Assembly (NCBI GenBank): GCA_004292855.1
Contig: RDXN01000072.1
Location: 1 to 48,093, forward strand
Length of the DNA stretch: 48,093 nucleotides
Source: Cytophagales bacterium
GTDB taxonomy: Bacteria; Bacteroidota; Bacteroidia; Cytophagales; Spirosomataceae
Direction: 5' to 3'
Of this stretch, positions 1 through 18,176 are shown in pieces. The position numbers and the translations under genes were made by a program. The first letter of the stretch is position 1; every line of letters begins with the position of its first letter. The notes under the pieces are model-generated. The model saw only the letters and a program-made list of their open reading frames with translations, was not told the DNA's origin and ran no database searches.

Positions 1-180
<180 letters not shown>

Positions 181-245
181 ATATTATTTGCTAGGTCCTA
201 AAACTTAGCTGTGCTTTTCGCCTGTGTCGTTCACTTATTGTGATG

Positions 246-313
246 CCAATATTTCAAAGAACGGTCTCACTTCTTTCGACGTGATGGAGGTCAACCGCTG
301 TTGTTGTTGACCT
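246..313 (-). promoter_or_regulatory. rRNA leader: hairpin and boxA-like element
   Basis: Between the promoter and 16S, the minus strand carries a hairpin (AGGTCAAC at 306-313 paired with GTTGACCT at 288-295), followed by GTTCTTTGAAATATTGG at 246-262. The second motif resembles the boxA antitermination element of rRNA leaders and is common before Bacteroidota 16S genes. The hairpin is seen directly; the antitermination role is inferred from position and family knowledge. Confidence 0.55.
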
Positions 314-333
314 GTTTCCCTCATTTGGGACTG

Positions 334-365
334 CAAAGGTAGGGCATTTTTAGGGCTTTTGTCAA
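334..365 (-). promoter_or_regulatory. rRNA operon promoter
   Basis: On the minus strand, TTGACA (360-365) is followed after 18 bases by TACCTTTG (334-341). This matches the Bacteroidota primary sigma factor consensus (TTG, about 17-23 bases, TAnnTTTG) very closely. It lies just beyond the pruA stop and would start transcription near position 328, giving a 16S leader of about 150 bases. Confidence 0.85.
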
Positions 366-393
366 GTCTTCGCCTAAAAAAAGTTTAAATATT

Positions 394-2025
394 TTATTCT
401 GCCTCCAGAAACGGGTAGCGGTATGAATTAGGTGAAACAAACGTTTCCTTGATGGTTCTAGCTGATACCCAACGCAACAAGTTTAGTAGCGAACCCGCTT
501 TATCGTTGGTTCCAGACGCCCTTGCTCCTCCAAATGGTTGTTGCCCGACAACGGCCCCAGTTGGCTTATCGTTGATATAGAAGTTGCCCGCAGCATTTCC
601 CAACAGTTTGCTTACTTTGTTAATAACATAACGGTCTCTGGCGAAGATGGAGCCTGTTAATGCGTACGGCGATGTGGTGTTCACGATCTTTATTACCTCA
701 TCAAACTCCTCGTCGTTGTACACATATATTGTCAATACAGGTCCAAAGATTTCTTCACACATTGTCCTGTATTTTGGATCATCTACTCGAAGCACTGTTG
801 GTTCTACGAAGTACCCTGTTGATTTATCGTAGTTCCCCCCAGCAATAACTTCTACGTTCGGATCATTCTTTGCTTCAGCTATGTATCCAGCTATTTTATC
901 AAAAGAACGTTCATCAATCACTGCGTTAACAAAATTTGAGAAGTCTTCAGTGCCCCCCATTTTAATTGTTCGCAACTCGTTTTGCATCTTTTTTTTCACC
1001 GCAGGCCATAACGATTCAGGAATGTAAGCTCTCGAAGCAGCCGAGCACTTTTGACCTTGATATTCAAACGCCCCCCGAATCAAAGCGGTTACCACCTCAT
1101 CCACGTACGCTGATTTGTGCATTAAAACGAAGTCTTTTCCACCCGTTTCTCCCACTATGCGTGGATAACTTTTGTATTTGTGGATATTCGTACCAATCGT
1201 CTTCCAAATCTGCTGAAAAACGCCAGTGCTTCCAGTAAAATGAATGCCGGCAAATTCGGGATGGTTGAAGATCACCTCACCTGCTACAGGCCCGTCTACA
1301 TAAATGAGATTAATCATACCGTCGGGTAGTCCTGCTTTTTTCAGCACTTCCATAATCACATGAGCTGAATAAACTTGTGTATAGGCAGGCTTCCAGACTA
1401 CTGTATTACCCATCATAGCTGCCGATATTGGTAGATTCCCAGCTATGGCTGTAAAATTGAACGGCGTTAATGCAAACACAAACCCCTCCAACGGGCGGTA
1501 TTCTAAACGATTCCATACTCCTGGCGACGAATTTGGCTGCTGACTGTAAATCTCCGTCATGTATTGCACATTGAAGCGTAGGAAGTCAATCAACTCGCAA
1601 GCTGAATCAATCTCAGCCTGATATACATTTTTCGATTGTCCAAGCATCGTTGCCGCGTTGATATTGGCTCTGTATGGTCCAGCAAATAATTCGGCAGCTT
1701 TCAGAAAAATACCTGCGCGGTGTTCCCAAGTCAATGCAGCCCATTCGGTTTTTGCAGCTAGTGCGGCCTCAATTGCCTGCTCTACATGAGTGGCATCCCC
1801 TTCTGAAAAATAACCTAGTGTATGCTTGTGGTCGTGAGGGGGAGCTATTCGCATTTTGGTTTCTAGCCGGACTTCTTTATCCCCGATATACATGGGAATG
1901 TCGATTTCTCTACTACGAGCTTCGGCCAGTGCTTTCTGTATGGCTAACCGCTCTGGCGAGCCTGGACGATACTCTTTTACTGGTTCGTTATGGGGAAAAG
2001 GCGGCTTAAACGTTCCAAAATTCAT
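394..2025 (-). CDS. pruA: L-glutamate gamma-semialdehyde dehydrogenase (1-pyrroline-5-carboxylate dehydrogenase)
   Basis: Oxidises glutamate semialdehyde/pyrroline-5-carboxylate to glutamate with NAD+, the second step of proline catabolism, in the cytoplasm. The 543-residue product has the length and sequence of the stand-alone PruA dehydrogenases. The aldehyde dehydrogenase core is clear: catalytic Glu293 in VGETGGKDF and nucleophile Cys327 in YQGQKCSAASRAY. The frame stays open 70 codons upstream, but that part looks non-coding and contains a TATCTTTG promoter box (2046-2053). I therefore place the start at the ATG of MNFGTFKPPFPHNEP, the usual N-terminus of this family. No proline dehydrogenase gene lies beside it. 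It points away from thrC and towards the rRNA operon promoter. Confidence 0.95.
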   Translation of the reverse strand: MNFGTFKPPFPHNEPVKEYRPGSPERLAIQKALAEARSREIDIPMYIGDKEVRLETKMRIAPPHDHKHTLGYFSEGDATHVEQAIEAALAAKTEWAALTWEHRAGIFLKAAELFAGPYRANINAATMLGQSKNVYQAEIDSACELIDFLRFNVQYMTEIYSQQPNSSPGVWNRLEYRPLEGFVFALTPFNFTAIAGNLPISAAMMGNTVVWKPAYTQVYSAHVIMEVLKKAGLPDGMINLIYVDGPVAGEVIFNHPEFAGIHFTGSTGVFQQIWKTIGTNIHKYKSYPRIVGETGGKDFVLMHKSAYVDEVVTALIRGAFEYQGQKCSAASRAYIPESLWPAVKKKMQNELRTIKMGGTEDFSNFVNAVIDERSFDKIAGYIAEAKNDPNVEVIAGGNYDKSTGYFVEPTVLRVDDPKYRTMCEEIFGPVLTIYVYNDEEFDEVIKIVNTTSPYALTGSIFARDRYVINKVSKLLGNAAGNFYINDKPTGAVVGQQPFGGARASGTNDKAGSLLNLLRWVSARTIKETFVSPNSYRYPFLEAE

Positions 2026-2045
2026 GTTCTGAAGTGTTTTTTGTG

Positions 2046-2053
2046 CAAAGATA
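2046..2053 (-). promoter_or_regulatory. pruA -7 promoter box
   Basis: TATCTTTG on the minus strand matches the Bacteroidota -7 consensus TAnnTTTG and lies about 20 bases before the chosen pruA ATG. No clear -33 TTG is visible at the right distance. It supports the short start of pruA. Confidence 0.5.
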
Positions 2054-2128
2054 ATTCCTTTTCTACTGGTTCTTTTTACCGCTTTTGACCCGTTTTGGGA
2101 TGGGTTTTGCACATTTTGTCTGGCTCTA

Positions 2129-2137
2129 TGTGGATAA
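2129..2137 (-). other. consensus DnaA-box 9-mer
   Basis: TTATCCACA on the minus strand (TGTGGATAA on the plus strand), a perfect match to the classic DnaA box, in the pruA/thrC divergent intergenic region. It is about 3.3 kb from the main box cluster at 5.4-5.8 kb. Binding is inferred. Confidence 0.4.
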
Positions 2138-2172
2138 GCTCGTAAATTGCCCCCTTCATTTTGAGCGGTCGT

Positions 2173-3480
2173 ATGCAATTCTACAGTACAAACAATTCCG
2201 ACAGATTTGTGTCTGTCCAACAAGCACTTTTCCACAGTTTACCTGTTGATAATGGGTTATATATGCCGTCGGTTATTCCTCGTTTGGGTGCCGATTTCTT
2301 TAATCGCATCGCTACTGACTCACTTGCTGATATTGGTTTTCAAGTTAGTCGCGAACTCTTCGCGGGCGAAATACCGAATGCAGCTTTGGAAGAGCTGACA
2401 CATCACGCGTTCCCATTTGCAACACCCGTTATCCCACTCGAAACCGGTAAACTCTCCATTCTTGAGTTATTTCATGGACCTTCTCTAGCGTTCAAAGACG
2501 TGGGTGCCCGATATATGGCTGGCTTAATGTCGTATTTCTCTCAAAAGGGTGATGCTGACGTACACATTTTAGTAGCTACCTCTGGCGATACAGGGGGAGC
2601 CGTTGCTATGGGTTTTCACGATGTTCCGGGTGTTCGCGTTTCTATTCTGTACCCCAGTGGGCGGGTCAGCGATTTACAAGAGAAACAGTTGACTACTCTC
2701 GGCGGAAATATCCAAGCGTTTGAAGTTGATGGCACGTTCGATGATTGTCAGGCTTTGGTAAAACAGGCTTTTCTTGATAGCGAATTAAACGCACGCCTTT
2801 CGCTCTCTTCGGCTAATTCAATCAATATTTTCCGGCTTATTCCGCAGGGTTTTTACTACGTCAGTGCTTACGGGCAGGTTGCTCAATATCGAAAACCGGT
2901 TGTTTTCTCCACCCCCAGCGGAAATTTTGGCAATTTGAGTGCTGGTGTATTAGTACAAAAGATGGGGCTGCCAGTCCATCATTTCATAGCAGCCACTAAC
3001 GCAAACCACGTTGTTCCCGATTACCTTCATTCTGGACAATACGAACCGAAACCGTCTGTGTCCACTATTTCAAACGCTATGGATGTGGGTGCCCCGAGCA
3101 ATTTTGTTCGTTTGACCCATCTGTATCAGAACTCGTATGACGATATCTCAAAACATATTTCTGGATACTTTTTCGACGATGATCAAACTCGTGCTGGTAT
3201 GCAGGTTATTCATGATGACTTCGGTTACGTAAGCTGCCCACATACGGCAATTGGTATTTTGGGGCTTCAACAGTATTTAAATCAAACTGGGTCCGATTGC
3301 TGTGGCGTCGCTTTAGCAACGGCTCACCCGTCGAAGTTTAAGCCTTTAGTTGAAGAAGTTCTAGGCGTTGAGGTCGACGTTCCCCAACGGCTTGCGGTTT
3401 TAGCGAACCGGGAAAAACAGTCAATTCCTATCTCTTGCGACTTCAACCATTTCAGAGAAGCCTTTCTACAAACGGTTTAA
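2173..3480 (+). CDS. thrC: threonine synthase
   Basis: PLP enzyme that converts O-phosphohomoserine to threonine, the last step of threonine synthesis. The 435-residue product has the full ThrC architecture: an N-terminal part with DNGLYMPSVIPRL, the PLP-lysine motif SLAFKDVGARYM (Lys108) and the phosphate-binding ATSGDTGGAVAMGF. I use the ATG of MQFYSTNNS rather than the in-frame TTG four codons earlier. It is divergent from pruA and ends before a hairpin shared with the converging TPR gene. No other threonine-pathway genes (thrA, thrB) are adjacent, although many bacteria cluster them. Confidence 0.95.
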   Translation: MQFYSTNNSDRFVSVQQALFHSLPVDNGLYMPSVIPRLGADFFNRIATDSLADIGFQVSRELFAGEIPNAALEELTHHAFPFATPVIPLETGKLSILELFHGPSLAFKDVGARYMAGLMSYFSQKGDADVHILVATSGDTGGAVAMGFHDVPGVRVSILYPSGRVSDLQEKQLTTLGGNIQAFEVDGTFDDCQALVKQAFLDSELNARLSLSSANSINIFRLIPQGFYYVSAYGQVAQYRKPVVFSTPSGNFGNLSAGVLVQKMGLPVHHFIAATNANHVVPDYLHSGQYEPKPSVSTISNAMDVGAPSNFVRLTHLYQNSYDDISKHISGYFFDDDQTRAGMQVIHDDFGYVSCPHTAIGILGLQQYLNQTGSDCCGVALATAHPSKFKPLVEEVLGVEVDVPQRLAVLANREKQSIPISCDFNHFREAFLQTV

Positions 3481-3505
3481 CTGTTCTTGTCAATTGTTCA
3501 CAAAG

Positions 3506-3550
3506 AAGCCGAACAAACTAGTTGCTTTTGGAGCAGTGTTTGTTCGGCTT
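3506..3550. terminator. bidirectional terminator between thrC and TPR gene
   Basis: A perfect 13-base inverted repeat, AAGCCGAACAAAC (3506-3518) and GTTTGTTCGGCTT (3538-3550), separated by 19 bases, lies between two convergent genes. The plus-strand side is followed by a T-rich stretch. Its location fits a shared terminator. Confidence 0.7.
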
Positions 3551-3572
3551 GTTGTTTTAGCTTTTTCAATGA

Positions 3573-5387
3573 CTAGTTTAGCACGTCACCCCGTAAAGCT
3601 CTAAATCGTTTTCGGGCTTCGGCCACGTAAATGCTCCCCGAATGATCCGTTAAGAGTTTCTGATAGATTGCCATTGCCTGTGCTTTATCTTTCTTGCGCT
3701 CCTCGAAAATTTTCCCTTGTAGGAACAAGGCATCGTCTCCCAATATGTCGCTTCCGTGGGCGGCTGTGATCTGTTTCAGGTCTTCCATAGCCTCATCCGT
3801 TTTTCCCTGCTTCAGGTATGTGTTTGCCCGCAACCAGAATACTTCATCAGCCAACATGTGTGACGAGTGCTTCTTTTGCATCTCGGTGAGTGCCTTAACG
3901 GCTTCATGAAGCTTGTTTTGAAACAACATTAGCTCGATGGCAGCGTACTCACGCATAGCTACTCCACTCGTATCCATTTCGGTGTTATCCTGAATGAGCA
4001 AACCCAGTTGTTCGGCATCGTTGGCAATTTCGCGTGAGGTAGCCAGTTTTAAGATATTCAAAATGTCTTTAGCCAATGCAAAGTTGCCACTGTAGTAATG
4101 CAGCTTGGCATTTTTCAGCTTGGCCTCGTGGCCCAGTTGCTCTTCACGCTGCGACTTTTCCACTTGTGAGTACAACAATGTGGATTCCCACGGCTCATTT
4201 TTCAGCAAATAAATATCGCCTTTATCGAGCTTGCACTTATCCACAAAATTCCGGTCGGTTTTCCCCAAATCAATCGCTAAATCCAACACTGTCAATGCCG
4301 TATCTTTTTGATCGAGGTAATTAGCGTACAGATTTGCTGTGCTTCGGAGAGCTTCCAATGTCTTTGCGTTGGAGCCAATTTCTTGTAACATGCTTTGATA
4401 GCTCGCTATCAGCTTTCGGATTTCTGACGTATCAACGGGGTACACATTTTTAACTTGCTCCTCCCGTGCCTGTATAGTCAAACGGCGGGCAAACGGATAA
4501 AGCTGACCTTGTGGATAATTGCTGGCAACAAAATCAAACGCGTCGGCGGCTGTCTTGAACTCCTTGTTATTCAGAGCTATAGTACCCAAATCGTACACCC
4601 GGCTCCCGTTTAGTTTAAGGCGTTTGTCGATGGCCTTTTCCTGTAATAATGCCCGACTGAATTTCTGCTTCTGTACTAAATACCATGTTAATAACTCGGT
4701 GTAGCTAAGTTCATTGGGTTCTTGCTGCACCCGTGTGTACAACGCCTTTTCCAACATTTCCTCCTCCTTAGTGTTGATAACTCCCTGCAATGCTCCCATT
4801 ACCTTCTCCTTTTTTTCGGGAATCCGGTTGAGTGTAAACAACTCGTTTAGCCATTTATCATTTTGGCCCGTTGCCCGATATAAACTTGCAAGCTCTTCAC
4901 TGTAGGCACTTGGGTCTTGGGTTTGCTCTCTCGCCACATTAAGGGCCATTATAGCCCACTTCGGCTCTCCAATGTCTGAGAACGCGACCGCCGACTGTTC
5001 GGCCCTTACAATTGATTTCTGTGCGTTTTTCAATGCTGCCGCGAAATGCCTGGCAATTTCCAGGCTGTCATTACTCCGGGCGGCCAGTTGACCTGCTAAA
5101 ATTTCGAACAGGTGTGTATTCTCATTTTCATTACGGGTCTGCCGTTTCAAATACTTTTCGGCTTCATCAACCTTGTTTGCTTTTGTAAGGCTTGTGATAT
5201 ACCGATAGGCTGTTGGCCAACTTACCCCATTTTTTAAAACCCGCGCATATTCGTTCGCTGCTTTGTCGAACTCGTCTTTTTTATAATACTCATCGGCTAA
5301 GTCAGCGGCTGACTGACCCCTCACAACGACACTCACTCCCAGCATCAGGATTGACGTCAATACGATATGCACAAACCTATATTTCAT
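3573..5387 (-). CDS. secreted tetratricopeptide-repeat protein
   Basis: A 604-residue protein with an N-terminal signal peptide (hydrophobic IVLTSILMLGVSVVVRG, probable cleavage near residue 25, no lipobox cysteine), then repeated helical pairs of TPR type throughout. Examples are DEYYKKDEFDKAANEYARVL near the start and WLRANTYLKQGKTDEAMED near the end. Such proteins usually scaffold envelope complexes; the partner is not visible here. It is the first gene left of the 513-base gene-free stretch and is transcribed away from it. Two perfect DnaA-box 9-mers lie inside its coding sequence (4237-4245 and 4510-4518). Specific function unknown. Confidence 0.85.
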   Translation of the reverse strand: MKYRFVHIVLTSILMLGVSVVVRGQSAADLADEYYKKDEFDKAANEYARVLKNGVSWPTAYRYITSLTKANKVDEAEKYLKRQTRNENENTHLFEILAGQLAARSNDSLEIARHFAAALKNAQKSIVRAEQSAVAFSDIGEPKWAIMALNVAREQTQDPSAYSEELASLYRATGQNDKWLNELFTLNRIPEKKEKVMGALQGVINTKEEEMLEKALYTRVQQEPNELSYTELLTWYLVQKQKFSRALLQEKAIDKRLKLNGSRVYDLGTIALNNKEFKTAADAFDFVASNYPQGQLYPFARRLTIQAREEQVKNVYPVDTSEIRKLIASYQSMLQEIGSNAKTLEALRSTANLYANYLDQKDTALTVLDLAIDLGKTDRNFVDKCKLDKGDIYLLKNEPWESTLLYSQVEKSQREEQLGHEAKLKNAKLHYYSGNFALAKDILNILKLATSREIANDAEQLGLLIQDNTEMDTSGVAMREYAAIELMLFQNKLHEAVKALTEMQKKHSSHMLADEVFWLRANTYLKQGKTDEAMEDLKQITAAHGSDILGDDALFLQGKIFEERKKDKAQAMAIYQKLLTDHSGSIYVAEARKRFRALRGDVLN

Positions 5388-5900
5388 TTCTTAATTTAAT
5401 TAATTCTTAAAGCTATTAAAAGGTATTAGGGGTGTGGAAATGTGGACGACTTTGTTTTCCACAAACGTACCCCAATAACGTTGATTTTCTCAACATAGTT
5501 ATACCCAGTGTATTTTTTGTTGTCCACTTTTAGTATATTGATAATCAACACTATAACAAGTTATCCACTTGCGCTCTATTCTGTTTTTAACTTATACACG
5601 CATCTACACTATCAACAACTTTGGCCTGATTAAAACTTGTGCTTGACCTGTCCACAAGAATGTGGTTATCCTTTTCTCACTAGCTTAGCTATCCGCAAAT
5701 TGGGCAACCCAGTGTTTATTCACAATTGCAAGGCTTATTCACAGCTCTCTTTCCACCGTTATACTTATGTTTTCAACACTGTTTTCCACGCTAATCTTCA
5801 ACATTTTTTATTTTCAATTGACCTTTTCCGATACGCTTATTTTTTAAGACACCAGTCAAGTTACTCGTCTCCTCCTTGACCTAACACCAGCAGTGTGGGC
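5388..5900. other. candidate replication origin (oriC): DnaA-box cluster
   Basis: This 513-base stretch has no credible gene and is AT-rich. It holds two perfect TTATTCACA boxes in the same orientation 19 bases apart (5716-5724 and 5735-5743). One-mismatch boxes are TTTTCCACA (5455-5463), TTATCCACT (5561-5569) and TTATACACG (5592-5600), with weaker ones such as CTGTCCACA (5649-5657). AT-rich blocks lie at both edges (5388-5425 and 5796-5820) and could be the unwinding element. mnmG (gidA), a classic origin neighbour, lies about 1 kb to the right, with a parS-like site beyond it. The rRNA operon to the left is transcribed away. The boxes are seen directly; the origin function is inferred. Confidence 0.6.
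5716..5743 (+). other. tandem pair of perfect DnaA boxes
   Basis: TTATTCACA occurs at 5716-5724 and again at 5735-5743, both in the same direction, and matches TTATNCACA exactly. Starts are 19 bases apart, close to two helical turns, so two DnaA molecules would sit on the same face of the DNA. Confidence 0.6.
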
Positions 5901-6785
5901 CTATTGCTTTTGAAAAATATAGATGAGGCTTGAATAATTGCCCGTTCGGCGTGCGTGAAAATTTGATTTTAAGCCTCCAAAGAAACTTCCCAACAAATTT
6001 GTTTTTCCATCACGGTATTTTGTACTGAGCATGCTGATGTAGAATGAGTCGAAGTACATGGGCTTTACAGTTACCGATTTGAAATTTGCCTCTGTGGCTA
6101 ATCGGGTGATCGAAGCAGGTGTAAAGTGCGAGAGATGGCGGGGTACATCGTAGGCCGCCCAATGTGGACCATAATGTTTGGCATCGTAACTTTCGGAATT
6201 TGGTAATGCCAGTAGTAAAATGCCGTTGTCATTTAGCCGATCTCGTAACTCACGGATTGTTTTATGAGGATTGGGTACGTGTTCCAATACGTGCCACATC
6301 GTAATGATGTCGAATTGTTGCTTGTGCAATTGCCCAACGGTTTCATGTATCTGTTGACCTAATCGTTCTTCAGCCGTTGACCTGGCAAAGCTGTCTGGTT
6401 CTACACCCTCTATGGCCCATCCCCCTCTTTTGATCACATCCAGAAATAATCCTGTGCCGCATCCAACATCGAGTAAGCGGCCTCTTTTGCTGCCCACTGA
6501 ATTTATCAACCTGAGTTTCTGACCCAGCGTATAGCGACGAACCCATTTATAAATTTCGTTTATGATTCCACCACTGTTGTCATTATGCGAAACATACTGC
6601 TCCGACTTATAATAATCGCCAAGCGTTGACTCATCGGGGCGAGGATTTGTGAATCGAAACCCACAATTCTGACATTCATCTATTTTGAATATGTTTTGAC
6701 TAACCAAAAAATCCTGACACTGCTGGTGAGTTCTGAATTTATCTTTCTGGCACACTTGGCAAATTAACTTTGTTTCTACTGTCAT
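5901..6785 (-). CDS. class I SAM-dependent methyltransferase with N-terminal zinc ribbon
   Basis: The 294-residue product begins with two CxxC pairs (CQVC and CQNC, about 25 residues apart) that probably bind zinc. A Rossmann methyltransferase domain follows, with motif I LLDVGCGTGLF around residue 105 and the later WHVLEHVPNP. This layout is typical of the many methyltransferases that modify sugars or small metabolites in cell-surface polysaccharide pathways; the substrate here is unknown. The start is the ATG of MTVETKLICQVC. An in-frame ATG eight codons earlier falls inside the mnmG terminator hairpin and is rejected. It lies alone between the DnaA-box cluster and mnmG. Confidence 0.85.
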   Translation of the reverse strand: MTVETKLICQVCQKDKFRTHQQCQDFLVSQNIFKIDECQNCGFRFTNPRPDESTLGDYYKSEQYVSHNDNSGGIINEIYKWVRRYTLGQKLRLINSVGSKRGRLLDVGCGTGLFLDVIKRGGWAIEGVEPDSFARSTAEERLGQQIHETVGQLHKQQFDIITMWHVLEHVPNPHKTIRELRDRLNDNGILLLALPNSESYDAKHYGPHWAAYDVPRHLSHFTPASITRLATEANFKSVTVKPMYFDSFYISMLSTKYRDGKTNLLGSFFGGLKSNFHARRTGNYSSLIYIFQKQ

Positions 6786-6801
6786 TTTTTGTCTAAAAAT
6801 G

Positions 6802-6832
6802 AATCCCACCTGCTCGCCGAGCAGGTGGGATT
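6802..6832. terminator. terminator after mnmG
   Basis: An almost loop-free palindrome: AATCCCACCTGCTCG (6802-6816) pairs perfectly with 6818-6832. T-rich runs follow on both sides, so it could stop transcription in either direction. For mnmG, transcribed leftward and ending at 6849, it is the expected rho-independent terminator. Confidence 0.75.
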
Positions 6833-6848
6833 TTTGTGATTGACTTTG

Positions 6849-8711
6849 TTATCGGCCCATGTAAACGAGCAAGATCGAAATGTCTGATGGGCTTACGCCA
6901 CTGATTCGAGATGCTTGCCCAATTGTAGCCGGTTTTATCTTCTTGAGTTTGTCCCGGCCCTCATACGAAAGTGCTTTTAAGCGGTCATACTCAAAATCGG
7001 GTTGAATTTCGAGGTTCTCCCACTTCCCTATTTTCTCGGCGTTCACGCGCTCCCGGCTCAAATAATCTTCGTATTTGATCTCAATCATTGCCTGCTCTAC
7101 GGTTTCCTCAGCAGGTTTGTCCTCGGCAGTTGGAATGAACTGGAGCAGGTAATCTATTTCAGTTGTGCCAATTTCGGGACGTTTGATAAGTGCGTAAATG
7201 CTGTTTTTTTCTTTGAGTTGCGCACTGCTTAAATCGGCTAACCAACCGTTGATCTCGTCAGGTTTGAGCTTTGTGGTTCGCGTTTCTTCAATCAAATTTG
7301 CAATCTTTTTACGCTTCTCCCCTACTCGCTCAAAACGTTCTTCTGAAGCTAACCCAATTGCATAGCCCTTTTCGGTTAGTCGAAGATCCGCATTGTCTTG
7401 CCGTAGCAAGGTTCGATATTCGGCTCGCGACGTAAACATTCGATAAGGTTCCTCCGTACCCTTTGTGATGAGGTCATCTATTAAAACGCCAATATACCCC
7501 TCCGCCCTACTGACCGTGAACGGGTCTTTTTCATGGGCATTCTGATGGGCATTGATCCCTGCCATTAATCCTTGGCAGGCTGCTTCTTCGTAGCCCGTAG
7601 TACCATTGATCTGACCAGCAAAAAATAAATTCTTGACCAAATGTGTCTCTAACGTGTGTTTTAACTGGGTTGGCGGAAAGTAGTCGTACTCGACGGCATA
7701 GCCCGGTCTGAACATTTTCGACTTCTCAAATCCCGGTATTTTGCGCAATGCTTTCTGTTGAATTTCTTCTGGAAGTGATGTCGAAAAACCATTCACATAC
7801 ACTTCTACGGTATCCCAACCTTCAGGCTCCACAAAAATCTGGTGACGATCTTTGTCGGCAAACCGATTGATTTTGTCCTCGATTGATGGGCAGTATCGAG
7901 GGCCTAATCCTTTTATTCTACCCGTGAACATAGGCGATTGCTCAAACCCCTCTTTCAAAATTTCGTGAACATCGGTGCTTGTGTAGGTTATCCAACAGCT
8001 CCTTTGCTTTGCCAATGCTGTTGTGTCGGTATACGAGAACTTTCCGGGCTTTTCATCCCCTTGTTGTTCTTCCATAGCTTCATAATTTAAGCTACGTCCA
8101 TCTATTCGAGGAGGTGTTCCCGTCTTCATGCGGCCTGCTTCAAAGCCTATTGACTCTAATTGTTCCGTTAATCCTGTCGATGCTCCTTCGGATGTTCGGC
8201 CTCCTCCAAAAGTCTTTTGCCCAATAAAAATTCGCCCGTTTAGAAACGTACCATTCGTAAGCACCACAGTCTTTGCATGAAACGTTTGTCCCATACTGGT
8301 TTTCACTCCCTTCACGAACTCACCTTCGACAATGATTTCTTTGACTGTATCCTGCCAAAAATCTACATTGAGATTACGTTCTAGAGCCAGTCGCCATTCT
8401 AAAGCAAATAAATTACGATCACTTTGGCAGCGTGGACTCCACATTGCCGGACCTTTTGAGCGATTAAGCATCCGAAATTGGATCATGCTCTTATCGCTGA
8501 TAATTCCAGACATGCCTCCAAGTGCATCAATCTCACGTACGATCTGTCCTTTTGCCACACCACCCATTGCTGGATTGCAGGACATTTGAGCAATCGTCTG
8601 CATGTTCATCGTTATCAGCAATGTTTGAGAACCCATCGTTGCTGCGGCATAGGCTGCCTCGCATCCTGCATGACCCCCTCCCACTACTATAACGTCGTAT
8701 GTTTCGTGCAT
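6849..8711 (-). CDS. mnmG: tRNA uridine-5-carboxymethylaminomethyl(34) synthesis enzyme MnmG (GidA)
   Basis: FAD protein that works with MnmE to add the carboxymethylaminomethyl group to wobble uridine 34 of certain tRNAs. The 620 residues match the family length. Visible motifs are the FAD dinucleotide fold VVGGGHAGCEAA at the start, SCNPAMGGVAKG, GLGPRYCPSIEDKI and AGQINGTTGYEEAA. The C-terminal helical domain ends in SRISGVSPSDISILLVYMGR, the MnmE/tRNA-binding tail. In many bacteria this gene borders oriC or the par locus; here it is close to the DnaA-box cluster and starts 22 bases from a parS-like palindrome. mnmE is not in the window. Confidence 0.98.
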   Translation of the reverse strand: MHETYDVIVVGGGHAGCEAAYAAATMGSQTLLITMNMQTIAQMSCNPAMGGVAKGQIVREIDALGGMSGIISDKSMIQFRMLNRSKGPAMWSPRCQSDRNLFALEWRLALERNLNVDFWQDTVKEIIVEGEFVKGVKTSMGQTFHAKTVVLTNGTFLNGRIFIGQKTFGGGRTSEGASTGLTEQLESIGFEAGRMKTGTPPRIDGRSLNYEAMEEQQGDEKPGKFSYTDTTALAKQRSCWITYTSTDVHEILKEGFEQSPMFTGRIKGLGPRYCPSIEDKINRFADKDRHQIFVEPEGWDTVEVYVNGFSTSLPEEIQQKALRKIPGFEKSKMFRPGYAVEYDYFPPTQLKHTLETHLVKNLFFAGQINGTTGYEEAACQGLMAGINAHQNAHEKDPFTVSRAEGYIGVLIDDLITKGTEEPYRMFTSRAEYRTLLRQDNADLRLTEKGYAIGLASEERFERVGEKRKKIANLIEETRTTKLKPDEINGWLADLSSAQLKEKNSIYALIKRPEIGTTEIDYLLQFIPTAEDKPAEETVEQAMIEIKYEDYLSRERVNAEKIGKWENLEIQPDFEYDRLKALSYEGRDKLKKIKPATIGQASRISGVSPSDISILLVYMGR

Positions 8712-8715
8712 TTTT

Positions 8716-8768
8716 GCGAAAAATTACAAAACGTTTCACGTGGAAACTTTTGTGAAAAATTACAAAAC
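8716..8768. repeat. direct repeat flanking the parS-like site
   Basis: A 17-base sequence (G, then C or T, then GAAAAATTACAAAAC) occurs at 8716-8732 and 8752-8768. The two copies differ at one base, are 36 bases apart, and flank the palindrome at 8733-8747. No family assignment. Confidence 0.7.
8733..8747. other. parS-like ParB-binding palindrome
   Basis: GTTTCACGTGGAAAC closely resembles the chromosomal parS site. Compared with TGTTTCACGTGGAACA, the 16-mer at 8732-8747 agrees at 13 positions, including the whole central TTTCACGTGGAA. It lies directly upstream of mnmG, a common position for parS in bacteria with a gid-par arrangement. Identity is inferred from sequence similarity; parA and parB are not in the window. 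Confidence 0.65.
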
Positions 8769-8798
8769 CAGACAAAAAGTTCAGAGTCCTTGTCTCCG

Positions 8799-11700
8799 TT
8801 ACTTAGAAACCTTCTGCAAATATTCGTTGGCCTGCTTCTTGTAATAAGGGTTGTACGTCGGAAGAACAGAGCGTAATACCTCAGCTTGCTTCATTTGTGG
8901 ACGGTTATTTAATGAATCGAAAAACGAAGGATTGCTAACTTTTGGTGATTTGGCCGTTTGCGACTGACGTTGTGGATCTTCCTCCTGTTGCTTCAACGCT
9001 TTCTCAGATTCTAATAATCGAGTCAAAATCTCATTTTGACGATTAATCGTGTTCGGATTTACGCGCTTGTTCACAAGATCAGTTTCGGTCTGATCCATTT
9101 TCTCCATGAGTTCGCCTACTTGTTTCTCCAGTTGCTTGCCTACCTCGGTGCCTTTTGCGTTCTCCTGAAGTTTTTTCAACAAACCACGAATCATCGCCTG
9201 CTCAGCGGCCATCTGTGCCATTTGTTCGGATTGGGCACGACCTGTTGTGCCACCTTGGGACATCTGTCGCATTTTGGCGTTCAACTGCTTTTGCATCTCG
9301 CCCATTGCACCCGATGGATTATTGCTCTTGCCTTTGCTCTGACCTGAACCCGGCATACCCATACCATTCATTTGCTGCTGCATATTTTTCAACACATCGC
9401 TCAGTAACAACGCAAGATTGTTCATTGAAGTCATGGCAAACTGTTGACGCGACGAGGCTTGTGAAAGCTTGCGTTCTTTAAGCTGTTGCGTACTCTGATC
9501 CATATAGTACTTCATATTCGACATTTCACGCGTGACGAATGACTGAATCTGATTCACGCGAGATGCTAATGAGGTCAAACTATCTTCAACAATTCGGGCA
9601 TCGTCCTGTAGCTTTAACTGATCCTGAGAAAGCTTCGCTACACGAGGATCTTGCAGATTTATTCCCCGAAATTCCTTCATAAGACGCTCCTGACCAAACG
9701 AAAGGGTGATTAGGTTTTCAAGCAGATTACGAAGATCATCCATGTTTTCTTGAAGCTCCTGCGCTTCCATTGAGGCCATCGACATCTGCATAGCCTTCGC
9801 CATACTCCGCATCGACTTCGAGGTTTTACTCTGAGATTTGGATGCTTTTTGACTCTGTTTCTGATCGAGCGATTGTTTGGATTGTTGCATCTGCTGCTCA
9901 ATCTCTTTCTGAGACTCTTCTTGTTGCTCAGGTGACCGGAGCTGATCTTTCTCCGCCTGCTTCTCAATTTCCTTCAATTGCTCTTGTAGCTTCTTGAAAT
10001 CTTCTATCGCTTTTTCCTGCTCCTTTGCCTGTTGTTCCTGGTCTTTAGCTTGCTGTTCCTTCTCTGTACCTTGTTTTTCTTTATCCTTAGGGGAGTTTTT
10101 ATCAGCGTTTTTGCTATTCTCTTCCTTACTGTTTTCTTCAGCCTCTTTGTCTTGTTTCTCAGCCTGCTTTTCTAGTTCATTGATGGCATTCTCTACCTTC
10201 TGCTCAAGCTGCATTTGCTTGAACATTTTCATGGCGCGTTCCAAATCACGCTGCATGTTGCGCTCCTTACGGTTTAATCGGTCGAGTACTTCGCTAGCTT
10301 TATCATCTTGCTTTTTCTCAAGAAGCTGCTTTAATTCATCGTACAGCTTCTTGGATTCAGGGTCGAGCAGGTCTTTAAACATCTTCTCTAACTGCTCCAT
10401 TTTCTGTTGCATCTGAGGGTCTGTTTGGGCGAACCGTTCCTGGGTCTGGTTTGTCTTTTGAAACTGTTCCTGAAGCTGCTTAATCTGCTCAATCAGTTCC
10501 TCGCGTTTTTTCAAGACATCCTCCAATTGCTTTTTATCCTGAAAATCGGTGGCCTTTTTTGTGCGGAGACGATCTTCCATCTGGGCCAATTCCTTCTTAA
10601 TTTCCTGCGTCTTACTGAGTGCCTGATCAAGTTGCTCCTCAGTTTTCTCGGCCGCTTTGTCTATCTGTTTCTGAACATCCTGATTCGATGGCACAGCAAA
10701 ATTCATCGGGTTAGACCGAGCTGACTTGGCACCATTAGCTCCGTCATTGTCCCATACTTGAACAAAATAATCGAGCCGATCCTCTTTGTCTAGTTTAAGA
10801 CTATCGAGCGACCAATTGTAGGCGAAGTTTTGGGAGGTCGACGACCGGTTGATTGGGATGTCTTTCGAGAACAAAGGCGACTCTTTTCCCTTCCGAATGA
10901 CTTTGTAATTGAGCCGAAGTTTGGTAAAACCGTAATCGTCGGAAATAAGGCCGTTTAGAGCGATAGCACTATACGCAACCGTGTCCTGGATTTTATCTAC
11001 TGAAATACTAGGAAATCGGTCAGGGATAACCTGAATGGCATAATTGATGGCGGAGGGAGTGGGTACCTGATTGTTTTTAAGGGTAACGGTCAGGGGCATA
11101 TTCTGCATGAGCCGACGCGATGCCGTAAACTGATTATCATCGGAAAGTTGGGCAACGACCGGCTTCGCTCCTATCCCAAACTGGAGTAACAAAGAGTCGG
11201 TGTGATCGGCCACAAAGTTCCAGGTAACAACTGTCCCTTGCGGCACTAACAAGTTGCCGACGTTTGAAAGCTGCTCGGAAGGTTTGTTCAGATAGGCCGG
11301 ATAGACGAGTTTGACGTCAAAGTTCAAAACAGCCGGACGGTCAATTAGCTCAACCTGATAATCGGCAGAGCGGAACCCCGATGCTTCCAGATGAAAATCG
11401 AGATCGCGCTGAACATTGTCGAACGTATAGGTAAAAAGGCCGTTCGAGGGCTCAAGTTTAAATCGGGTTTCATTCGTAACCAAATACACATCCTGCGGAA
11501 TGGCACTGCCCGTCAGGCGGACCGTCAGGGGGAAATCCTCGTTGCGAAAGGCCTTAAGCGATTTATTTTGAAGCAAAAATTGGAAAGGTGCCTCCTCAGC
11601 AAACTCCCGGTTGTAGTTCACAATACGCTTAGACGAAGCCGAAAAGAAAGTCGGATTCACTAACAGAATACCGGCGATTAAGAGCAACGGCGGCAAAGCA

Positions 11701-12167
11701 AATTTCAGAAAACGGCGGTTGCGGTTTATCTGAATGGCATTGGCGAATCGCGTAATGAGCAATTGTTGCGAACGCTGTTGTAAACTGGCTTGCATCAAAT
11801 CACTTTGAGCCGACGACAGCCGTTGAAGCTGAAGTGTGTTCAGAAGCTTGTCGCCCACCTCCGGGAAAAACTGACCAATTTGCCGGGCAGCTTCATCATC
11901 GGGAAGAGCCTTCTTTAACGTGTAAAGCCCGTAAAGTGGTTTGATAATAAACAGATAAAGGGTAATAGCTACGGTGAGCAAAAACCCAAAAAACATAATG
12001 GCTCGCCCTGATGAACCAAAACGCCCCACGAACTCAGCCGTATTCAAGAGAAGATAAAGTGATCCACTCAAGGCCACAAAAAAAAGTGAACCCTTTACCA
12101 GTTGATTCAAAAAATAACGCTTCTTGTACTCCTCAATGCGTTGGAGTAAGGTATCGTATGACTGCAT
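8799..12167 (-). CDS. DUF4175 family membrane-anchored coiled-coil protein
   Basis: A 1122-residue protein. Near the N-terminus are two membrane helices (SLFFVALSGSLYLLL and MFFGFLLTVAITLYLFII) and a third around residue 155 (LPPLLLIAGILLV). A beta-rich periplasmic-type region follows, then a very long charged, Gln- and Lys-rich coiled coil from about residue 500 to 820 (repeated EKQ, QEQ and EKQAEKQDKEAEEN segments). The C-terminal part is Met/Gln-rich. This layout matches the large DUF4175 proteins of Bacteroidota; their role is not established to my knowledge, though a structural envelope function is plausible. It is followed by mnmG on the same strand and preceded 30 bases away by a small conserved gene, so those two probably form an operon. 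Confidence 0.85.
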   Translation of the reverse strand: MQSYDTLLQRIEEYKKRYFLNQLVKGSLFFVALSGSLYLLLNTAEFVGRFGSSGRAIMFFGFLLTVAITLYLFIIKPLYGLYTLKKALPDDEAARQIGQFFPEVGDKLLNTLQLQRLSSAQSDLMQASLQQRSQQLLITRFANAIQINRNRRFLKFALPPLLLIAGILLVNPTFFSASSKRIVNYNREFAEEAPFQFLLQNKSLKAFRNEDFPLTVRLTGSAIPQDVYLVTNETRFKLEPSNGLFTYTFDNVQRDLDFHLEASGFRSADYQVELIDRPAVLNFDVKLVYPAYLNKPSEQLSNVGNLLVPQGTVVTWNFVADHTDSLLLQFGIGAKPVVAQLSDDNQFTASRRLMQNMPLTVTLKNNQVPTPSAINYAIQVIPDRFPSISVDKIQDTVAYSAIALNGLISDDYGFTKLRLNYKVIRKGKESPLFSKDIPINRSSTSQNFAYNWSLDSLKLDKEDRLDYFVQVWDNDGANGAKSARSNPMNFAVPSNQDVQKQIDKAAEKTEEQLDQALSKTQEIKKELAQMEDRLRTKKATDFQDKKQLEDVLKKREELIEQIKQLQEQFQKTNQTQERFAQTDPQMQQKMEQLEKMFKDLLDPESKKLYDELKQLLEKKQDDKASEVLDRLNRKERNMQRDLERAMKMFKQMQLEQKVENAINELEKQAEKQDKEAEENSKEENSKNADKNSPKDKEKQGTEKEQQAKDQEQQAKEQEKAIEDFKKLQEQLKEIEKQAEKDQLRSPEQQEESQKEIEQQMQQSKQSLDQKQSQKASKSQSKTSKSMRSMAKAMQMSMASMEAQELQENMDDLRNLLENLITLSFGQERLMKEFRGINLQDPRVAKLSQDQLKLQDDARIVEDSLTSLASRVNQIQSFVTREMSNMKYYMDQSTQQLKERKLSQASSRQQFAMTSMNNLALLLSDVLKNMQQQMNGMGMPGSGQSKGKSNNPSGAMGEMQKQLNAKMRQMSQGGTTGRAQSEQMAQMAAEQAMIRGLLKKLQENAKGTEVGKQLEKQVGELMEKMDQTETDLVNKRVNPNTINRQNEILTRLLESEKALKQQEEDPQRQSQTAKSPKVSNPSFFDSLNNRPQMKQAEVLRSVLPTYNPYYKKQANEYLQKVSK

Positions 12168-12197
12168 GATTGAGCCTGTTAGAAGTCAAAAAGGAAA

Positions 12198-12563
12198 TTA
12201 ATAGGTGAGGACTTTGGAGAAGTACTGAAGCACATTTCGCTTTAAATAAGCTTCCTGTTCTTCCAGACTGCCCGACGGTAGAGGTATCTGCAACGTCCAG
12301 ATTGGCCAGCCATCGGCGTCATAACCGTCAAGAGAGTAGTGACCTGCTTCATTCATAACCCGACAAACGGCGATGTGTAACAAGTCCTGTTTCTGCTCTT
12401 TGGTGAACCGTTTAGGACCGCGCCCAAGCTCTTGTAAGCCAATCAAAAATAATACAGCGTTGAGATCAGCGGGCCGTTTCCCGACCAGCGTTTCTAGATC
12501 ATTCAGAAGCAAATTCCACTCGGAATCGAGGCCACTAACCGACACATTGTTAACATCATCCAT
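12198..12563 (-). CDS. small conserved hypothetical protein
   Basis: A 121-residue acidic, soluble protein with no signal peptide or membrane segment. It has the look of a conserved Bacteroidota protein (segments ADLNAVLFLIGLQELGRG and NEAGHYSLDGYDADGWPIW), but I cannot assign a domain or role. It is the first gene of a leftward pair with the DUF4175 protein, with a 30-base gap. It is divergent from the comF-type gene. Confidence 0.75.
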   Translation of the reverse strand: MDDVNNVSVSGLDSEWNLLLNDLETLVGKRPADLNAVLFLIGLQELGRGPKRFTKEQKQDLLHIAVCRVMNEAGHYSLDGYDADGWPIWTLQIPLPSGSLEEQEAYLKRNVLQYFSKVLTY

Positions 12564-12609
12564 AAGTCTGACTAAATTACAACATCTAAATCAATAACGC
12601 ACATTGACT

Positions 12610-13314
12610 ATGTTTCGGTTTGTTTCAGAACTGCTGTCTGACTTTTTTGATCTGGTTTACCCAACAATATGTTTGGGTTGTCAAAAGACGCTGGAAACTA
12701 CCGAACCGTTGCTTTGTGTGTCGTGTCGGATGAGCTTGCCCGAAACCCAAACGCATCGGGGTAATGACTCCGAATTGATCAATAAGTTTGCGGGTAAAGT
12801 AAAGGTTGAACACGTTGCAGCACGTTACCGGTATAGTAAAGGAAGCGTTGTGCAAAAACTGATTCACGCCATCAAATACAAAGATCAACCCGAGGCCGCT
12901 ATTCAGGTTGGACAGTGGTTCGGCCATACATTAAAGGCAGAATGCCCGTGGATTGAGGATGTCGATGTACTGATTGGTGTACCGCTTCACAAAAAACGGT
13001 TAAGGCAACGAGGCTATAATCAGGCCGACTGTATTGCACAGGGAATAGCTGAAGTGACCCAATTACCTGTGTCAACGAGTGCATTAGTGCGAACGCGATT
13101 TCAGGGTTCGCAGACACGTAAAAACCGACTGCAACGATGGCTAAATGTAGAGACAGTGTTCCGGGTAGCAGACCCTAAGCAGATTATTGGTAAACACGTG
13201 GCAATCGTAGATGATGTGCTAACAACAGGGGCCACCATTGAATCGTGTGCAATTGAACTGCACAAGGCAGGTTGCCGTTCAGTTAGTGTATTAACTATTG
13301 CCGCTACCCGATAA
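12610..13314 (+). CDS. ComF family phosphoribosyltransferase-like protein
   Basis: The 234-residue product has the ComF layout: an N-terminal zinc-ribbon-like pair of cysteine motifs (CLGC and CVSC), then a type I phosphoribosyltransferase fold ending in the PRPP loop VAIVDDVLTTGAT near residue 205, with KRLRQRGYNQA before it. In naturally transformable bacteria ComF acts in DNA uptake, and related proteins are widespread where competence has not been shown. The start is the ATG of MFRFVSELLSD; an in-frame TTG two codons earlier is less likely. Its stop codon overlaps the T-run side of the gldJ terminator. Confidence 0.9.
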   Translation: MFRFVSELLSDFFDLVYPTICLGCQKTLETTEPLLCVSCRMSLPETQTHRGNDSELINKFAGKVKVEHVAARYRYSKGSVVQKLIHAIKYKDQPEAAIQVGQWFGHTLKAECPWIEDVDVLIGVPLHKKRLRQRGYNQADCIAQGIAEVTQLPVSTSALVRTRFQGSQTRKNRLQRWLNVETVFRVADPKQIIGKHVAIVDDVLTTGATIESCAIELHKAGCRSVSVLTIAATR

Positions 13315-13342
13315 AAAAAGCGGGAAGCTTTCGCCCCCCGCT
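13313..13342 (-). terminator. terminator after gldJ
   Basis: On the minus strand, AGCGGG (13337-13342) and CCCGCT (13319-13324) form a stem with a 12-base loop, followed by an unbroken run of seven T. It lies 23 bases past the gldJ stop codon and overlaps the comF-type stop, so both genes end in the same 50 bases. Confidence 0.8.
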
Positions 13343-13364
13343 CTCTTATTTACCGTTAGATTTC

Positions 13365-14666
13365 TTATTTGTTCCGACCCAAACCAATCATTGCACAACG
13401 GAAACCGATTGCCGCAGTGGCTGAATCCTGATCGAGTGACCGGCGTGTTCCGGGGGCTAACCAATAGGCTACGTCGTTCCATGAACCGCCTTTATACACC
13501 CGAATCTTATCGTCGATGATCGACTGGTTATTTTTCCGGTCGTAATTCTTGGCTTCGTCAAGATAACCATTCCGACGGATTGGGTTCAAATCGCTCACGT
13601 CCTGATACGAAAGAGGACGGTACACATCGTAAACCCACTCATTCACGTTACCCGACATGTTGTACAAGCCAAAGTCGTTCGCTGGGAACTTATAAATCTC
13701 ATCGGTGATAATAGCGTGGTCATTGGAGCGACCGGCGATACCTGCATAATCACCACGCCCCCGCTTGAAGTTAGCAAGCATTTGACCTTGCTTACGTCCT
13801 TTCTTCGGGTTGCGTACCGAAGAGCCGTCCCACGGATAAATACGCTGATTGGCCTGATTTTCGTCCAGATACTGCGTACCAATCATGGCTTTAGCAGCAT
13901 ATTCCCACTCGGCCTCTGTTGGCAAACGGTACTCAGGTAGCACCATGCCACTCTCGATGCTCATCCGGGCTGGTGCATTTGACGCGGGTGCTGCTTCGGC
14001 TAATACAGGCTCAGGGGCAGACTTCGATTTGCGCTTGAGTGAGAAACCGCCTTTCTTTCCTTTACCCTTACCCGCGTTGCCCAGTTTTTGCCCTTTCTTG
14101 GCAAGTTCATTATTCACGACTTCAGTACGCCAAGCTGCGTAATCGGCAGCCTGCGTCCAGCTAACACCTACAACCGGATAGTAGCGGAAAGCAGGGTAGC
14201 GCAGGTATTGTGTTACGTACGAATCGTTGAACGAAAGGGGGTTTGCCCAAACGGTTGTATCGGGCAAAGCTGCCTTAACCACTTCTTCTGACGAATCACG
14301 CTGGATGGCGTTCAGATATTCCAGATAGTGAACATTGGCCATCTCGGTTTCGTCCATATAGAACGATTGAATACTAACCGTACGCTCGCGGTTGTCGCGT
14401 GAGTTGAGCACATCCTCTTCCAACGCACCCATTGTAAAGCGACCTCCTTCGATGAATACAAGGTTTGGTCCACCGTTTGGGGCTTTAAACGATTTTACCT
14501 GAAAACCTTCTTTCTGGTTATAGGCAATACCCGTCGCCGTACTCTTCTTACCGGGTTTCACACTCGTCGGGTGTTTCGACTTACAAGCGGCAAAAGCCAC
14601 TGTCGCCAACAACACATAAGCTACGCGTTTGAGTTGAACTCGCGCAGTCTGATACTTTTTGATCAT
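13365..14666 (-). CDS. gldJ: gliding motility lipoprotein GldJ-like (SUMF1/FGE fold)
   Basis: A 433-residue lipoprotein with signal peptide and lipobox FAAC (Cys28). A formylglycine-generating-enzyme-like domain follows: LVFIEGGRFTMGALEEDV near residue 70, SFYMDETEMANVHYLEYL, YPVVGVSWTQAADYAAW, RLPTEAEWEYAA and YKGGSWND near the end. The opening TGIAYNQKEGFQ and the ETEMANVHYLEYL segment resemble GldJ more than GldK. GldJ is needed for gliding and type IX secretion in Flavobacterium; the protein lacks obvious catalytic cysteines and is thought to be structural. The start is the ATG of MIKKYQTAR; the frame opens earlier only at a TTG that abuts the mfd stop. Assignment to GldJ versus a paralogue is from memory of sequences. 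Confidence 0.8.
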   Translation of the reverse strand: MIKKYQTARVQLKRVAYVLLATVAFAACKSKHPTSVKPGKKSTATGIAYNQKEGFQVKSFKAPNGGPNLVFIEGGRFTMGALEEDVLNSRDNRERTVSIQSFYMDETEMANVHYLEYLNAIQRDSSEEVVKAALPDTTVWANPLSFNDSYVTQYLRYPAFRYYPVVGVSWTQAADYAAWRTEVVNNELAKKGQKLGNAGKGKGKKGGFSLKRKSKSAPEPVLAEAAPASNAPARMSIESGMVLPEYRLPTEAEWEYAAKAMIGTQYLDENQANQRIYPWDGSSVRNPKKGRKQGQMLANFKRGRGDYAGIAGRSNDHAIITDEIYKFPANDFGLYNMSGNVNEWVYDVYRPLSYQDVSDLNPIRRNGYLDEAKNYDRKNNQSIIDDKIRVYKGGSWNDVAYWLAPGTRRSLDQDSATAAIGFRCAMIGLGRNK

Positions 14667-14692
14667 TGCTGTATCTGTGTCAATCGAAGTTG

Positions 14693-14700
14693 CAAAAGTA
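14693..14700 (-). promoter_or_regulatory. gldJ -7 promoter box
   Basis: TACTTTTG on the minus strand matches TAnnTTTG and sits 27 bases before the gldJ ATG, just past the mfd stop. It suggests that gldJ has its own promoter besides readthrough from mfd. No convincing -33 element is visible. Confidence 0.5.
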
Positions 14701-14701
14701 A

Positions 14702-17700
14702 TCAATTCGTAAGGGCTTTAAGTACCTGATCCATCTGTTCAACGGATTGAACGTCAGAATGCGTAAAAACCGGGCGTCCCTTTAGCTCTTTAAGCGAGAA
14801 TTTTGCCGGGTTTGCCCGTAGGTAGTCAATAACCTTGCCAAAGCCATCGGATTTAAAGAAACCATCGTCCCTGCTATTGCTACCCTCCGAAGAAACGAAG
14901 TACCCCTTTAGGATATTACTTTTGAGCGTCAGTTTTTCCAGATGGAGTTGCTCAGCTTTCCAGCGGACACTCACCATTTTAATCAGGTTTTCAACGTCTT
15001 TTGGTAGCGGCCCAAAACGGTCGAGAACCTCTTGCCGGAAGGCGTTTAGCTCGTCTTGTGTTTCAATACTGTCTAACCTCGTATATAACGCCAGACGCTC
15101 TGAAATATTCGACACGTATTTGTCGGGAATAACAACCTGTAAATCGGTCTCGATGACGGTGTCGGGCAGGATCGGTTTCAGAGCATCTATGTTGGGTGCG
15201 AAGAGATCTTTGAACTCGGTTTCGCGAAGTTCCTGAACGGCTTCATCAAGCAATTTATGGTACATCTCGTAGCCGAGGTCGTTAATAAAACCGCTTTGTT
15301 CGGCACCTAACAGATTTCCCGCTCCACGTATGTCCAGATCGCGCATGGCAATTTTGAAACCCTCACCAAGATCCGAAAAGTCCTCAAGGGTTTGTAGTCG
15401 CTTCCGGGCATCCGACGAGAGCATGGAGGCCGGGGGGGTAAGCAAGTAACAAAACGCCTTCCGGTTCGACCGCCCTACCCTACCCCGCATTTGGTGCAGG
15501 TCGGACAAGCCAAACATGTGGGCTGAGTTGATCAGAATTGTATTGGCATTCGGAATATCGAGACCCGACTCAATGATGTTGGTCGATACCAGAACATCGT
15601 AGTCGCCTTCGATAAAGCGGGTCATGATCCGTTCGAGCTTTTCGCCTTCCATCTGCCCGTGAGCAACGGCTACTTTGGCTTCGGGAACGAGCCGTAAAAC
15701 CAAGTTGCCAATAGACTCGATGTCAGCAATCCGGTTATGAACAAAGAATACCTGCCCCCCGCGTCGAACCTCGTAGCTGATGGCGTCGCGCACAGTAGCC
15801 TCGTTAAATAGGTGAACCTCTGTCGTAACAGGTTGCCGGTTAGGTGGGGGCGTAGCGATCACAGAGAGATCACGGGCACCCATCAGCGAGAAGTGCAGCG
15901 TGCGCGGGATAGGTGTGGCCGTGAGCGTCAACACGTCGACATCAACGCGCATTTCTTTTAGGCGATCCTTAGTTTTGACACCGAATTTCTGCTCCTCATC
16001 GACCACCAACAAACCGAGATCTTTGAACTTAATGTCTTTATTCACAATCCGGTGCGTACCGATCAGGACATTTATCTCACCCGATGCCACCCCCTTTAAA
16101 ATCTCCTTAACCTGATTGGGGGTACGAAATCGGTTGATGTAATCAACTTTTACCGGAAAATCGGCAAAACGGTCGGTGAACGTTTTGTAGTGCTGCATGG
16201 CCAGAATGGTAGTCGGGACCAGAACAGCCACCTGCTTGTTATCGGAAACCGCTTTGAATGCCGCTCGAATCGCTACTTCTGTTTTACCAAAACCGACATC
16301 GCCACAAACCAGCCGATCCATTGGGTGGGGCTGTTCCATATCGTTTTTGACGTCGTTGGTGGCCTTCGCCTGATCGGGGGTGTCCTCATATAAGAAAGAC
16401 GATTCGAGTTCAACCTGCAAAAACGTGTCGCGGCTGTAGGCATAGCCCGGAGCCTGCCGACGTTTGGCATACAAGGCGATTAACTCCTTAGCAATGTCCT
16501 TGACCTGCTTCTTAATCCGCGACTTTTTCAGATCCCATTCCTGCGAACCAAGCTTGTTCATGGTGGGCGGGCCACCTTCTTTGCCGCTGTATTTGGCAAT
16601 TTTGTGCAGGCTGTGGATGTTAACCAGCAAAATGTCGTTATCGCGGTAGATAAGCCGGATGGCCTCTTGTTCGCGCCCACCAGCATCGACTTTCTCAAGT
16701 CCTGCAAACCGCCCAATGCCGTGGTCCACGTGCGTTACGTAGTCGCCGGGTTGGAGGGTTTTTAATTCGCGTAGAGTAAGAGCTTTCGACTTAGAGAATT
16801 TATCCTGTACGCGGTATTTGAAGTATCGGTCGAAGATTTGGTGATCCGTAAAGCAAACGACTTTGAGGGCTTCGTCGGTAAAACCTTCGCGCAAGCCGAT
16901 GTTAAGCGGCTGAAATTTGAGGTGTGGGTCAAGCTCTTCAAAAATGGTCCGCAGCCGCTCCAACTGTTTGAATGACTCAGCGGCAATAATGTTGGTATAG
17001 CCTTTCGACTGATTCTCAGCAAGATTCTCAACCAGTCTTTTGAAATCTTTATTGAACGAGGGCTGCAATTTTGATTGATACTGTTGCCGTGCCTCGGTTT
17101 TGAAATAAAACTTGCGGCCAAACTCAATCGTTGTCAACCCCTTCAAGTTGTTGAGCAATGTCCGGCGAGTCTCAAACAAGTCACCGGGGTCCGACACCAC
17201 CTGAACACCCCCACTGCCCGCCAATACCGACGCGAAACTGTGTTGGGCACGCTCGAAACAGGTATCCACAATTTCAAGTGTATAATCCACATCCTTAGCC
17301 CAGGCAATGGTGTTTTTAGGCAGGTAATCCAGGAATGACTCGCGGGTTTCTTCCACCAACTTGGTCTGAATGTTGGGGATAATGTTGATAAACCCGACAT
17401 CGCCTGTGGAAATCTGTGTTTCGGGGTTAAATTTCCGAATGCTCTCTACCTCATCGCCAAACAGATCAATCCGATACGGAAACTCGCTGGCAAACGAGAA
17501 TACGTCGATGATACCCCCACGAATCGAAAACTGCCCCGCTTCGTACACAAAATCGGTCAACTCGAATGAGTAATCCTGAAGCAGTTCGGACACGAAATTG
17601 GTGTCAAGCTTATCCCCTACCCGTACCGTAAGTGTGTTGGCTATGAGGGTCTTCTTACTAACAACTTTTTCAGAAAGAGCTTCGGGGTAGGTAACGATCA

Positions 17701-18118: not shown

Positions 18119-18176
18119 TGAAAAGGTAACAGGGAGTCAAAGAGAAATGTTCGGGCAACTCTTGTGAATCAGATTG

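Follow-up and report, generated by a model that had tools for sequence, protein, structure and literature searches.

Our analysis of a 48,093-nucleotide stretch of DNA (the window; contig C19 of a source genome of 6.25 Mb in 108 contigs) points to the gap at positions 5388–5900 as, very probably, the chromosomal replication origin (oriC). Judging from its mnmG matches, the window belongs to Spirosomataceae; among the best 80 loci listed, the closest match of mnmG is from Rudanella paleaurantiibacter, with 82% identity. An earlier note on this DNA had proposed the gap as a candidate origin, and the proposal is supported by the conservation of its DnaA boxes, by a GC-skew flip in three relatives, and by parS-like sites, of which the window's own is unique in its genome; all of these, like the box cluster itself and the distance to dnaA, were observed directly. 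Overall, the oriC reading is well supported, by the relatives more than by the window.

The gap carries a DnaA-box cluster in an intergenic region, as expected of an oriC (Table 1). Counting TTATNCACA-like words with at most one mismatch as boxes, we found six in the 513 bp, two perfect and four with one mismatch, all six on the + strand, versus a mean of 1.02 expected by composition when the gap sequence was dinucleotide-shuffled 5000 times (P 0.0002). The two perfect boxes compare with 0.05 in the same shuffles (P 0.0012). The two perfect boxes 19 bases apart that had been noticed earlier are indeed present as copies of TTATTCACA whose starts are 19 bases apart, and the "at least three" one-mismatch boxes turned out to be four. 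Within the window, box density peaked at the gap, with six per 505 bp and five in the next best place elsewhere; moving the 505-bp frame leftward gave seven. We further sampled 400 kb of the 6.25-Mb source genome as 20 stretches, hand-chosen to take in two box pairs seen earlier and the dnaA locus. This sample displayed a mean of 0.34 boxes per 505 bp, a best sliding 505-bp window of five and a maximum of four among 780 non-overlapping 505-bp windows. As for the genome-wide TTATNCACA matches that the earlier note had suggested counting, density was highest at the gap within the 400 kb sampled, and the total across the genome was not raised (113 matches versus 109 for a reversed control). Since the word lacks genome-wide enrichment, only its clustering at the gap is special.

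Table 1. Features of the window at and around the candidate origin
Feature	Position	Strand	Basis
16S rRNA 5' end, truncated by the contig end and reading away from the cluster	1..178	-	SSU rRNA 5' end at 178
TPR-repeat protein gene, adjoins the cluster	3573..5387	-	Pfam; synteny (TPR match in 48 of best 80 loci)
Candidate oriC, intergenic DnaA-box cluster, 36% G+C	5388..5900 (513 bp)	none	Box counts
Candidate duplex-opening stretch, the AT-rich edge that adjoins the TPR start codon	5388..5412	none	
Candidate unwinding module, conserved and terminal (two weak box-like words in tandem, a C-rich spacer and TAATA...TAATA)	5413..5447	-	Alignment of five gaps
DnaA-box-like TTTTCCACA, 1 mismatch	5455..5463	+	Box scan
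DnaA-box-like TTATACCCA, 1 mismatch	5499..5507	+	Box scan
DnaA-box-like TTATCCACT, 1 mismatch	5561..5569	+	Box scan
DnaA-box-like TTATACACG, 1 mismatch	5592..5600	+	Box scan
Perfect DnaA box TTATTCACA	5716..5724	+	Box scan
Perfect DnaA box TTATTCACA	5735..5743	+	Box scan
SAM methyltransferase gene	5901..6809	-	Pfam; synteny
mnmG (gidA), transcribed toward the cluster	6849..8711	-	Pfam
parS-like palindrome TTCCACGTGAAAC, upstream of mnmG	8733..8745	-	Sole own-genome match to TTYCACGTGRAAC

The surroundings of the gap largely agree with their earlier description. The 3' end of mnmG lies 949 bp to the right of the gap, where about 1 kb had been given, and the outward rRNA operon corresponds to an SSU rRNA on the - strand that is transcribed away from the gap. 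The statement that no other gene-free stretch exceeds 300 bases is sensitive to how genes are called, as positions 32854–33193 likewise hold no ORFs of 110 aa or more. The G+C content of the window is 46% at positions 1–20000 (the origin side) versus 55% at 20001–48093, with 53% in the sample of the source genome.

To place the cluster among relatives, public genomes were scanned with MnmG and the best 80 loci were kept, more being available. At least eight boxes per 505 bp were found in 50 of the best 80 mnmG loci, including 46 of the 51 loci L002–L052, and in all 50 the best box window lay 0.9–3.2 kb downstream of mnmG and, where a TPR gene was found, ahead of it. The other 30 of the best 80, with short contigs and more distant matches among them, displayed no cluster of eight boxes. 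In 42 stretches of 800–850 bp upstream of the TPR gene, that of the window among them, TTATCCACA was the top 9-mer, with 126 sites in 36 of the 42 stretches. A prediction written beforehand was then borne out in 20 related genomes of a single genus (g25), where all 20 loci displayed 12–16 boxes in a 505-bp window whose end falls near the TPR start; one of these genomes (G127) had already been sampled for skew, and three contain N letters. The window's cluster, with 6–7 boxes, is poorer than the 9–16 of its nearest relatives (L002, L003, L005, G103 and g25).

The gene order is also kept in the nearest loci, such as L002 and L003, reading mfd (assigned by Pfam), FGE-sulfatase, phosphoribosyltransferase-like gene, small gene, DUF4175, mnmG, methyltransferase, gap, TPR, threonine synthase and aldehyde dehydrogenase. 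A TPR match was obtained in 48 of the best 80 loci; a methyltransferase match was absent in several loci, including some relatives whose TPR gene still lies beside the cluster. The latter qualifies the earlier suggestion of an origin marked by gidA and TPR/methyltransferase genes. In Larkinella (L007, 10808–12424), a gene for an Ig-like-domain (Big_5) protein is located between the methyltransferase gene and the box gap; many other loci display similar spacing, and the window, L002, L003 and L092 have no room for it.

A parS-like palindrome is located 2.8 kb from the candidate oriC, and parS sites are expected close to an origin. The looser pattern TTYCACGTGRAAC, chosen after the conserved variant upstream of mnmG had been viewed in the loci, has a single match in the whole source genome and occurs in 22 of 22 genomes searched, every one of them having a match just upstream of mnmG. 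Its 37 distinct sites in these genomes include 36 at most 15 kb from mnmG and a last one at 48 kb, compared with three matches over the 22 genomes for a reversed control. In 67 of the best 80 loci, the parS-like palindrome TTYCACGTGRAA precedes mnmG at a distance of no more than 170 bp. The earlier hint of a parS-like site near the gap proved both right and strong. Stricter patterns gave less: perfect GTTNCACGTGNAAC occurs in 8 of the 22 genomes and not in the source genome, and the window's site has three mismatches to a 16-base parS pattern, with one such match versus 2.6 expected by chance. The published parS consensus is TGTTTCACGTGAAACA (PMC10197239); the same source located origins by parS and skew, states that read coverage agrees, and describes dnaA as not always near. 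One ParB-family match was identified in the source genome. The palindrome is also found upstream of mnmG where there is no 8-box cluster, for example in Mucilaginibacter (L080 and L081), and in L071 and L073 it lies at the mnmG 3' end instead. Nine g25 genomes have a second parS-like site, across mnmG from the boxes and at a nearly constant 9.9–10.0 kb from that gene.

The candidate origin is not placed beside dnaA, as the earlier note had anticipated. The dnaA of the source genome sits on another contig (C79), and the gene is remote from mnmG in relatives, with distances of 1.0–2.3 Mb in 12 chromosomes of known length and of 1.2–5.5 Mb in nine further genomes, for which the distance is linear only. 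In the 20-kb stretch around the organism's own dnaA (L218), no box cluster was found, the best window holding two per 505 bp. Of 21 chromosome-level genomes (20 in a single contig and one in four), 6 have a dnaA domain match that begins no more than 600 bases from the start of the sequence. These six (G094, G134, G013, G021, G039 and G025), all single-contig, seem to have been rotated to dnaA instead of the candidate mnmG–TPR origin.

GC skew was sampled as twenty 20-kb stretches per chromosome in four chromosome-level relatives. In three of them, representing three genera (G103, of the window's genus, 6.33 Mb; G025, 6.97 Mb; and G157, 4.94 Mb), the skew was mainly negative before and positive after the mnmG–gap locus, with single samples departing from this trend. 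In the fourth (G127, 10.3 Mb), a clear two-arm pattern was not seen with this 20-point sampling. Fine scans over 400 kb in G103 and 200 kb each in G025 and G157 (with 10 kb of N letters in each of the latter two and 3.7 kb in the G103 locus stretch) located the cumulative-skew minimum 14.5, 23.6 and 17.2 kb from the boxes, respectively, toward the mnmG side. The predicted skew minimum at the gap was thus borne out as a change of sign at the locus in three of four relatives, but not as a fine minimum, which lies 14–24 kb to the mnmG side. This offset is the main result against pinpointing the origin at the boxes. Computed in the window alone, the skew has its minimum near 16–18 kb, away from the boxes. 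An apparent origin island of low G+C (34–38% over 20-kb stretches in G103, G025 and G157) proved to be an artefact of N letters, the corrected values being 44–49%.

The offset could mean that the origin is in this neighbourhood and its forks start 10–24 kb to the mnmG/mfd side, the array serving as a nearby site that loads or titrates the initiator. We consider this very unlikely. The shift is consistent across the three genera, and the genes between the boxes and the skew minimum are more leading-strand-like by third-position skew in G103 (6 genes on the main strand) and G157 (9 on the main strand), with an ambiguous outcome in G025 (11 genes); the second parS-like site of the nine g25 genomes, which lies toward the mnmG side at about 10 kb, points the same way. 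However, local skew is unreliable because the intervening genes are few and conserved, and the shift amounts to less than 0.4% of the chromosome. Moreover, the densest box window of each fine scan is the gap and not the skew minimum, with maxima of 9, 13 and 18 (G103, G025 and G157) and next-best windows of 3–6.

The position of the boxes, immediately ahead of the TPR start codon, would also suit a DnaA-regulated TPR promoter, or a datA- or DARS-like site of DnaA titration or reactivation, with the origin elsewhere. Such a role in place of an origin seems extremely improbable, given that the skew flip and the parS-like sites converge on the same place and that no denser cluster was found in the 400 kb sampled of the 6.25-Mb genome or around its dnaA. 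The grouping of box-like words might also have arisen by chance in AT-rich sequence, which would fit the absence of a genome-wide excess of TTATNCACA; this reading has practically no likelihood in view of the shuffle P value and is contradicted by conservation in the relatives and in the 20 later g25 loci.

At the TPR side of the gap, a terminal module is common to the window and four aligned relatives, beside the TPR start. The broader gap comparison used the 41 loci with long TPR matches among the best 80, leaving aside seven with weak TPR matches (L037, L039, L045–L048 and L051) and 32 without a match; seven of those left aside were viewed. The module pattern is post hoc, in that a first strict regular expression matched 8 of 50 regions and was loosened after the sequences had been viewed; in its loosened form it matched 21 of 43 gaps on the strand reading toward the TPR gene and 3 of 43 on the opposite one, with 2.0 for shuffled sequences. 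In the later genus g25, the corresponding values were 14 of 20, 0 of 20 and 1.0. A published loose DnaA-trio rule is uninformative here because it passes on both strands in 43 of 43 gaps and in about 36 of 43 shuffles.

Taken as an oriC, the gap suggests the following course of initiation. DnaA, the product of a distant gene, would load on the box array and, starting at the weak tandem boxes on the TPR side, spread into the AT-rich TAATA edge (about 5388–5430). There the duplex would open, the helicase would be loaded and two forks would leave. Segregation of the new origins would fall to ParB, presumably bound to the parS-like site upstream of mnmG. A more far-reaching idea, which we regard as unlikely, is that the mnmG–parS–box–TPR block forms an origin unit, ancient and fixed, in Bacteroidota of the Cytophagales type, and that strand asymmetry in it switches 14–24 kb from the DnaA array, so that one fork regularly starts late or outside the array (asymmetric initiation).

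These findings give the probable location of the origin in a family whose chromosome sequences frequently start at dnaA although mnmG is elsewhere. The mnmG–TPR gap is the place to use when growth rate is estimated from read depth, when strand bias is studied and when oriC vectors are built for these bacteria, and the parS-like site just upstream of mnmG offers a simple origin marker in incomplete genomes.

In E. coli, the origin is arranged as mioC–oriC–gidA. The candidate origin resembles it in having a box cluster near gidA/mnmG and dnaA elsewhere. It differs in that mnmG is transcribed toward the boxes, with a methyltransferase gene between them (and in many relatives also room for the Ig-like gene), whereas the E. 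coli-type gidA lies directly beside oriC and is transcribed away; in addition, a TPR gene occupies the far side of the boxes. Cytophaga hutchinsonii belongs to the same order as the window's organism and has a working chromosomal oriC. The E. coli oriC is named in PMC10225481, and replicative plasmids carrying oriC are mentioned in PMC5288383.

In the basal unwinding system (BUS), as outlined in PMC8287927, a box is followed by a spacer of up to 16 bp and at least three DnaA-trios. The TPR-side edge of the gap resembles this outline in its weak tandem boxes, C-rich spacer and TAATA words, and differs from it in lacking an evident run of three trios immediately after the window's terminal boxes. 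Parallels in position come from Flavobacteriaceae, another lineage, where Ori-Finder 2022 predictions in agreement with GC skew place oriC beside mnmG in Mariniflexile litorale KMM 9835T (PMC11278836) and in strain KMM 8389T (PMC12843772); the comparison concerns mnmG position, skew and dnaA only. In the former, the position of dnaA disagrees with the skew, and a figure legend of that paper swaps oriC and ter relative to its text. In the literature searched, no description of a Spirosomataceae origin of this kind was found; DoriC, outside that search, may hold predictions for some relatives. Origins adjacent to mnmG are thus already in print for other Bacteroidota, and the gap described here adds another probable example, in Spirosomataceae.
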